Assembly (NCBI GenBank): GCA_021325635.1
Contig: JAJPGV010000049.1
Coordinates: 1-64,000, forward strand
From: Chloroflexota bacterium
GTDB taxonomy: Bacteria > Chloroflexota > JAJPGV01
Length of the DNA stretch: 64,000 nt
Direction: 5' to 3'
Under the pieces are notes generated by a model. It worked only from the letters and a program-made list of their open reading frames with translations, was not told where the DNA came from and did no database searches. Positions 31,596-33,798 of this stretch are shown here, in pieces (position 1 is the stretch's first letter; the number at the start of each line of letters is the position of its first letter). Made by a program: the position numbers and the translations under genes.

Positions 31596-32166
31596 TCCCG
31601 TTCAGTGCGAAGGCGCGTAGCCGCACTGTTCACCCGCTGAGGGTGTTACAGCGGGTCACAGCCTGATCGGACAACCGCAAGGCAGGCGCCGCGAAGGGGA
31701 AAAAGTCGTTTGACGTGCCCTCCGAAGGTCACCTGGTTCCGTGCTCGAACGGCGGGGCTGGCGGGGAGGGATGTATATACCAATCAATTAAGTACTTCCT
31801 TCCTGATCACCCATCTCCCAGTCCGACGCCTCTCCTCGATAGTCATCTCCTCCTCTCCGGGTCATCCCTCCAACTCCTCCGGCCGGTGTCCTTCTCTCTT
31901 ACGCTCAGTTCCTCTCTCGTGCTGCAGCTCCGGAGATATGCCCAACCTACCTCTGGTCCTGTCATCGGCTTGTCTTACTCCGACGCTGGCACTGCTGGTC
32001 TTCATCGCGTGTCTTTACCTACATGCCGAGGTCTACCCAGCCGTTGGCTTTGACGCTCCGTTGGCCGGACGTGGCCTGAGTGTTGCCCGGGCGCGGGCCA
32101 GCCGCTACACTCCCTGTGCTCGCCAGCAACCAGCGAGCATTCCAGCACGAGAGGAGGTGGCCGGAC

Positions 32167-32259
32167 CTGGAGCCAGGCGACTGTAAGCACCAACCGCGAA
32201 CGAACGCCGTGCGCGCCGCGGGCGCCGGCCATCGCCCCGGAGGACGCTTCCTCCGCTAG
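32167..32259 (+). other. Candidate upstream leader peptide ORF 1 (CTG start, MEPGDCKHQPRTNAVRAAGAGHRPGGRFLR)
   Basis: SD GGAGG at 32153-32157; resembles leader ORF 2 in peptide, stop and downstream CGCCTCCGCG. Confidence 0.4.
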
Positions 32260-32324
32260 GCTGGCCGCCTCCGCGCAGCGCGTGTTCCCCAACATTCATC
32301 TGCGAACCGCGAAAGGAGGTGAGA

Positions 32325-32429
32325 GTGTCCGTGGATCCCGACCCTGGTAGTCGCTGCCAGCGTAACGCTGGTCGCCGTCCCGTGCCGCGCGGTCGCTCGT
32401 CATCTCCCAAGGAGCGGCTGCTTCCGTAG
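32325..32429 (+). other. Candidate leader peptide ORF 2 (GTG start, MSVDPDPGSRCQRNAGRRPVPRGRSSSPKERLLP)
   Basis: Strong SD aaaggaggtgag 5 nt upstream; acidic/Pro N-terminus then Arg-rich; ends 94 nt before transporter start. Confidence 0.6.
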
Positions 32430-32523
32430 CCTGACTCGCCTCCGCGTGGCCTGCCCTGCACAAGGGCGCTCCGTCTGCTCCTGAGCGGACGGACGGAACA
32501 CCAACACGTACGGAGGTGAGCCC

Positions 32524-33798
32524 ATGGCTCTCAAATTTCCAATCCGCCTGCGCCGGCGCTCGCGGCTGCTGGCCTACCTGTCCATGCTCGGCCCGGGCCT
32601 TATCGCGGCCACGGCCGGGGACGACCCGGGCGGCATCGCCACCTACTCCTCGGTCGGCGCCAAGTACGGCTACGGCTTCCTGTGGGTGCTGGTGGTCATC
32701 ACCATCAGCCTGGCGGTGGTCCAGGAGATGTCGGCGCGCATGGGCGCCGTCACCGGCAAGGGCTTCTCCGACCTGGTGCGCGAGCGCTTCGGCATCCACT
32801 GGACGGCGCTGGTGATGCTGTCGCTGTTCGTGGCCAACGCAGTGCTCATCGTCTCGGAGTTCGCCGGCATGGGCGCGGCGGCGGAGCTGTTCGGCATCCC
32901 GCGCTGGCCGGTCATCGCCGTCATGGCGGTAGTGCTGTGGTGGCTGGTGGTCAAAGGCAACTACCAGCGCGTCGAGGTGGTGTTCCTGCTGATGACGCTG
33001 GTCTTCCTGGGCTACCCCGTCGCCGCCATCCTGGCCCGGCCGGACTGGCTGGAGGTCGGGCGCCAGCTGGTGACGCCCAGCTTCCAGTTCAGCAGCGACT
33101 ACCTGCTGCTGTTCGTGGCCACGGTCGGCACGACCATCAGCCCCTACATGCAGCTGTACCTGCAGTCGGCGGTAGCGGACCGCGGATCGAGCGCCGAGCA
33201 CATCACCCGGGAACGGGTGGATGCCTACACCGGCGCCATCTTCAGCGACGTCATCGCGGGGTTCATCATCGTCGCCACCGGCGCGACCCTGTTCGTGCAG
33301 CACATCGACGTCAACAGCGCGCAGGACGCCGCGCAGGCCCTGGCGCCGCTGGCCGGACGGTTCGCCGGCAACCTGTTCGGGCTCGGTATGTTCGGGGCGG
33401 CCGTGCTGGCGGCGGCCGTGCTGCCGCTGACGACGACCTACTCCATCACCGAGGCCATGGGCTTCGAGCGCGGCATCTCACGGACGTTCTCCGAGGCGCC
33501 GGTGTTCCTGGGCCTGTACACCGGCCTGATCGCCTTCGGCGCCATCGTGGCCATGCTGCCGGGCATCGACGTCATCCAGCTGCTGATCGTCACCTACGTG
33601 GTCAACGGCCTGCTGCTGCCGATCGAGCTGGTCACCATGGTGCGGCTGGTCAACGACCGACAGGTGATGGGCCGCCACGCCAACGGGCTGGTCCGCAACG
33701 TCCTGGCGTACGGGACGGTCGGCGGCGTCAGCCTGCTGTCGCTGGCCTACCTGGCGATCACCGTGCTGGGCCTATTTGGCCTCGGGCCAGGAACGTAG
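32524..33798 (+). CDS. Nramp-family divalent metal transporter (divergent: DPGG, SPY)
   Basis: GPGLIAATAGDDPGGIATYS TM1 motif, ~11 hydrophobic segments, TTISPYMQLYLQS; SD cggagg. Confidence 0.93.
   Translation: MALKFPIRLRRRSRLLAYLSMLGPGLIAATAGDDPGGIATYSSVGAKYGYGFLWVLVVITISLAVVQEMSARMGAVTGKGFSDLVRERFGIHWTALVMLSLFVANAVLIVSEFAGMGAAAELFGIPRWPVIAVMAVVLWWLVVKGNYQRVEVVFLLMTLVFLGYPVAAILARPDWLEVGRQLVTPSFQFSSDYLLLFVATVGTTISPYMQLYLQSAVADRGSSAEHITRERVDAYTGAIFSDVIAGFIIVATGATLFVQHIDVNSAQDAAQALAPLAGRFAGNLFGLGMFGAAVLAAAVLPLTTTYSITEAMGFERGISRTFSEAPVFLGLYTGLIAFGAIVAMLPGIDVIQLLIVTYVVNGLLLPIELVTMVRLVNDRQVMGRHANGLVRNVLAYGTVGGVSLLSLAYLAITVLGLFGLGPGT

Follow-up and report, generated by a model that had tools for sequence, protein, structure and literature searches.

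Sensing of Mg2+ through MgtL-type intrinsic ribosome destabilisation has been described for enterobacteria. The EPDP motif of the MgtL leader peptide, encoded ahead of mgtA in E. coli and Salmonella, causes ribosomes to dissociate at low Mg2+ and thereby switches on mgtA (PMC11282234), and in the mgtQ uORF, located between mgtC and mgtB of Salmonella, Asp2 and Glu5 together with an SD-sequestering stem control the translation of mgtB (PMC8092293). Two further systems are close to the locus described here, namely the M-box-controlled NrmT genes of Clostridium acetobutylicum, having a Mg2+-responsive 5' leader (PMC4072509), and the pe20 M-box leader of M. tuberculosis, in which an SD/anti-SD/anti-anti-SD arrangement extends over the serial uORF1 and uORF2 (PMC12810186).

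In a 64,000-nucleotide stretch of DNA from a Chloroflexota bacterium, herein called the window, two SD-led short ORFs were read in the sequence at 32145-32524, directly ahead of a 424-aa Nramp-like gene. Like MgtL, these are short ORFs with an acidic/Pro N-terminus followed by an Arg-rich part, preceding what is here a probable Mg2+ transporter gene; unlike MgtL, to which they are unrelated, the peptides occur in tandem, in another phylum and with another transporter family, and with predicted anti-SD stems in place of a demonstrated Rho-dependent terminator. With mgtQ they share acidic residues near the start, a strong SD, a predicted stem sequestering the SD of the transporter gene and possible alternative pairings, but mgtQ is a single intergenic ORF of 8 aa whereas here two ORFs of 30-32 aa lie in series. 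By analogy, the present leader would thus combine features of MgtL and mgtQ in doubled form. The C. acetobutylicum genes belong to the same superfamily branch, but their M-box is an RNA aptamer, none of which was found here, and the pe20 leader is M-box-driven, with no acidic/Pro drop-off motif reported for its peptides. In the open-access library searched we found no leader peptides ahead of NRMT genes. Acidic/Pro leader peptides responding to Mg2+ are already known as a kind; within the reach of our searches, what is new is their occurrence in tandem, on this transporter family and in this phylum.

Results

Both leader ORFs recur at a second locus in the same genome

Five Nramp homologues are encoded in the genome (4.64 Mb in 63 contigs). 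One of them, on the separate contig C24, shares 79% protein identity with the window transporter. A sequence-only reading had proposed that tandem, related leaders precede the Nramp-like gene, and both SD-led ORFs were indeed found again ahead of the C24 paralogue with their order kept, MEPGD... being first and MDPDPGSR... second, so that the acidic/Pro N-termini (MEPGD in ORF 1, MDPDP in ORF 2) are present in both genome copies. The features of the locus are collected in Table 1.

Table 1. Features of the tandem leader and the transporter gene in the window, and of the paralogous leader on contig C24
Feature	Position	Strand	Details
SD of leader ORF 1	32153..32157	+	GGAGG; paralogue has AAAGGGGGTGG at the equivalent place
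Leader ORF 1	32167..32259	+	CTG start (paralogue TTG); peptide MEPGDCKHQPRTNAVRAAGAGHRPGGRFLR
Hairpin GGAGGA/UCCUCC, end of ORF 1	32238..32254	+	Within conserved 44-nt block
Anti-SD 1 (CGCCTCC)	32266..32272	+	Pairs with SD2 in predicted folds of both copies
SD of leader ORF 2 (SD2)	32315..32319	+	GGAGG within AAAGGAGGTGAG
Leader ORF 2	32331..32429	+	GTG start; peptide MDPDPGSRCQRNAGRRPVPRGRSSSPKERLLP
Hairpin CCAGCG-TAA-CGCTGG inside ORF 2	32357..32371	+	From sequence comparison with the paralogue
Anti-SD 2 (CTCGCCTCCG)	32435..32444	+	Predicted to pair with the transporter SD
Hairpin TCCGTCTGCTC/GAGCGGACGGA	32470..32493	+	Apical part of the stem sequestering the transporter SD
Transporter SD (SD3)	32512..32516	+	GGAGG within ACGGAGGTGAG
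Nramp-related (NRMT-like) transporter	32524..33798	+	424 aa; Pfam PF01566, E 9e-89
Paralogue leader ORF 1	contig C24		TTG start; MEPGDSHRKAISNWRISPCAGAAHPMWRSFLL
Paralogue leader ORF 2	contig C24		GTG start; MDPDPGSRRQPRLVFVVSYADALSPRELLPRA

The upstream unit with a CTG start, as suggested by the earlier reading, corresponds to ORF 1. For ORF 2 that reading had placed the start at 32325 (M-S-V-D-P-D-P-G), an in-frame GTG that would add MS- to the peptide; since this codon is GCG in the paralogue, the shared start is instead the GTG at 32331, giving MDPDPGSR. Three SD boxes (GGAGGTG) follow each other in the window at intervals of 162 and 197 nt, and CGCCTCCGCG is repeated after both leader stop codons (32266-32275 and 32437-32446). 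This post-stop part of the likeness earlier noted between the two units is common to both, but the C..Q.R.NA pattern that went with it is not kept in the paralogue.

Using BLASTN, the two leaders were found to be divergent apart from a few short blocks. One of 51 nt (window 32311-32361; 92% identical, E 2e-16) covers SD2 plus MDPDPGSR, and another of 44 nt (32239-32281; 82%, E 1e-4) the end of ORF 1 with its post-stop box. The former is more conserved than the DNA of the transporter gene itself (79%). Conservation by codon pattern, as anticipated for true peptides, was also seen: all six base differences within 13 conserved N-terminal codons are silent, including the CTG/TTG start of ORF 1, the first five codons of which differ only silently. 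With a silent share of 0.25-0.29 expected by chance this corresponds to roughly 2e-4 to 6e-4 if the differences are independent, a figure that is a guide and no formal test because the 13 codons were picked after seeing the alignment. Also kept in the paralogue are the frame to the stop codon and, in three of the four units, a CGCCTCC post-stop box. Judged from these comparisons the tandem leader ORFs are real and beyond chance, with the second locus as the decisive evidence, and the fact that a second importer copy has kept both peptides suggests that ribosomes translating them help to sense magnesium.

On the plus strand 5' of the leader lies a long pyrimidine-rich, G-poor stretch (31795-31925), preceded by an AT-rich patch near 31770-31795; together these form a possible transcript start or Rho-loading region. 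A scan for promoter and terminator consensus sequences found none, and Rfam at both gathering and permissive thresholds gave nothing relevant in the window.

Each leader ORF is followed by a box complementary to the next SD

Behind each leader ORF lies a pyrimidine box (CGCCUCC or CCGCUCCGCG) whose bases complement the next gene's SD, and folding predicts this anti-SD:SD pairing in every one of the four units. With these predicted pairings the leader resembles a series of two gates, each sequestering an SD, and a box that is an anti-SD points to translational, mgtQ-like control and not to control by a terminator. At the transporter SD, CTCGCCTCCG pairs with CGGAGGTGAG in the window and CTCCGCG with CGCGGAG in the paralogue; the paralogue box CCGCTCCGCG and its SD-side partner have changed together, the bases being different with complementarity kept. 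The near-perfect hairpin earlier noticed before the transporter SD is present and belongs to the larger sequestering stem; its paralogue counterpart is shorter (CTGCTC-GCT-GAGCAG). Inside ORF 2 the paralogue version of the hairpin is CCAGCC-TC-GGCTGG, with one pair altered on both sides, and in the hairpin where ORF 1 ends, the GGAGG arm has the post-stop anti-SD as a possible alternative partner.

The cost of opening the transporter SD was 14.8 kcal/mol in the window, with none of 300 shuffled sequences as high, and 13.6 kcal/mol in the paralogue, with 4% of shuffles as high. The stems from ORF 1 to SD2 were weaker and not clearly above shuffles (68% and 6% as high). We also blocked the ribosome footprint along ORF 2 and recomputed SD accessibility, using equilibrium folding that ignores co-transcriptional order. 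In the window, the transporter SD was predicted to be more open with the ribosome at the motif and closed with the ribosome past codon 15, the latter raising the opening cost by 6.0 kcal/mol compared to early positions (codon-shuffled control 1.2 ± 1.4 kcal/mol; 0/40 as high). The same footprint-blocked folding gave no such effect in the paralogue (1.1 versus 0.3 ± 1.4 for codon-shuffled sequences), so that folding supports a direction of control in the window copy only.

The transporter resembles the Mg2+ branch more than MntH and has no MgtE_N/CBS neighbour

The window transporter matches EleNRMT (7qia) at E 5e-123, compared to about 3e-28 for MntH, and is thus nearer to the Mg2+ branch. NRMT proteins have DxxG-TxxA/T as their binding-site signature (PMC8806188); the window protein has the DxxG, with TTIS in helix 6 where the paralogues have TTVT or TTLT, and the binding-site Met of MntH is absent. 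From its sequence the gene probably encodes an Mg2+ importer. The substrate could be Mn2+: manganese uptake, but not high-affinity magnesium uptake, was complemented by an NrmT from Acidobacterium capsulatum that belongs to the MgtE-fragment branch (PMC4072509).

A link between NRMT and MgtE_N/CBS genes has been known since the same study (PMC4072509). Of 92 homologues that are at least 45% identical and whose upstream sequence is long enough, 71 are preceded by an adjacent MgtE_N/CBS gene, as are the nearest transporters (65% and 61%), directly upstream. None of the three close NRMT copies of this genome has such a neighbour. The third of these copies (72%; L003, G000:C56:117928-119175) lies directly behind a folK-like gene, so named by the look of its translation, and leader ORFs are absent there. 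Just one MgtE_N protein is encoded in the genome (about 411 aa; L165, G000:C60:9351-9656), and its gene stands alone, away from all three NRMT genes, although such genes usually adjoin NRMT. The M-box covariance model (RF00380) gave no match in the window or the genome.

With up to three mismatches allowed, no relatives of the leader were found in a set of 399 further genomes, all related at the level of the phylum and none more closely; the leader is known from two loci in a single genome. About 100 further NRMT or Nramp leaders held no comparable peptides, with a single lead ahead of an Actinomycetota NRMT gene (L089:1-596), where a GTG-start ORF with an SD, MEPVPSPSRLPRGSRRLRDGPRG..., is found 402 nt upstream and ends in a strong hairpin, at the place where relatives have the MgtE_N/CBS gene. 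It is a possible independent MgtL-like leader, but because those relatives carry the MgtE_N/CBS gene and lack such an ORF the evidence amounts to one sequence, and it was dropped as a supporting case. When the MEPVP/MDPDP pattern was sought in 21 NRMT genomes, the other matches entered long frames or apparent coding regions and were likewise rejected.

Discussion

We consider it about an even chance that the leader is a two-step translational attenuator of the MgtL/mgtQ type, with Mg2+-responsive ribosome drop-off acting through SD sequestration. In such a scheme ORF 1 would gate ORF 2 and ORF 2 the transporter, each through the anti-SD on the next SD. At low Mg2+, ribosomes would be destabilised on the acidic/Pro motifs (MEPGD; MDPDP) and leave the mRNA, whereupon the distal half of the ORF would stay unoccupied and could base-pair with the anti-SD or compete for it, and the transporter SD would open. 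With ample Mg2+, ribosomes would traverse the ORF and the anti-SD:SD stem would form. That Mg2+ is the signal, that ribosomes drop off and which way the control runs are all inferred, and control could run in the opposite direction, should full translation open the stem by coupling. The conserved units, the silent changes in the motifs, the predicted SD stems, the position effect in the window, the likeness to EleNRMT, the precedents of MgtL and mgtQ and the lack of an M-box count in favour of the attenuator. Counting against it are the weak CTG start of the window ORF 1, the missing position effect in the paralogue, the SD2 stems that do not clearly exceed shuffles, the occurrence of the leader at two loci of one genome and the possibility that the substrate is Mn2+. 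An attenuator had been proposed by the sequence-only reading, and the conserved tandem, the MgtL-like N-termini and the Mg2+-branch gene agree with that proposal, which had overlooked the post-stop anti-SD boxes.

No more than about 10 nt separate the stop codons from the start of these boxes, which places them where a terminating ribosome has its edge. The SD3 stem is moreover very stable, and a ribosome at the leader stop might simply open the next SD, so that output would track translation capacity with no Mg2+ sensing. Such plain translational coupling seems unlikely to us, leaving unexplained why MEPGD and MDPDPGSR are conserved while the distal peptide drifts. We regard it as similarly improbable that the peptides attenuate in response to another metal (Mn2+) or to stress, in the form of a shortage of EF-P, EttA or charged tRNA-Pro. 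The manganese complementation by the A. capsulatum NrmT (PMC4072509) would agree with this possibility, as would the relief by EttA of acidic/Pro pausing (PMC11282234), but the likeness of the transporter to EleNRMT by far exceeds that to MntH, and it lacks the Met that MntH has in its binding site.

The higher identity of the 51-nt block compared to the gene, extending to the SD-start spacer and to silent sites, might instead reflect a structured metal-sensing RNA in which the ORFs are incidental. This is very improbable in our judgement, considering that Rfam gave no match, that unit 1 keeps its amino acids while wobble bases change and that both ORFs retain frame and stop. As to chance ORFs in GC-rich DNA, an SD followed by M[DE]P is by itself not rare (21 matches in the genome versus 19 in a reversed control), but SD plus MDPD occurs twice versus none in the control, both being the two loci studied here, and with the tandem arrangement and the peptides conserved in the paralogue this disfavoured explanation has hardly any probability left.

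Returning to the attenuator, the genomic context is suggestive of a protein sensor having been swapped for a peptide sensor, as seen in one genome; other NRMT loci exist that have neither the MgtE_N/CBS gene nor such peptides. We propose only tentatively, and hold it to be rather doubtful, that this Chloroflexota lineage replaced the adjacent MgtE_N/CBS protein with serial ribosome-destabilising peptides, forming a two-stage Mg2+ sensor of MgtL-independent origin. If this is true, a two-stage peptide sensor would sharpen the Mg2+ response. A convergent tandem form in so distant a phylum would also make acidic/Pro drop-off a general Mg2+ sensor, and the leader, as a double gate provided by nature, would allow tests of how the threshold depends on the composition of the peptides.
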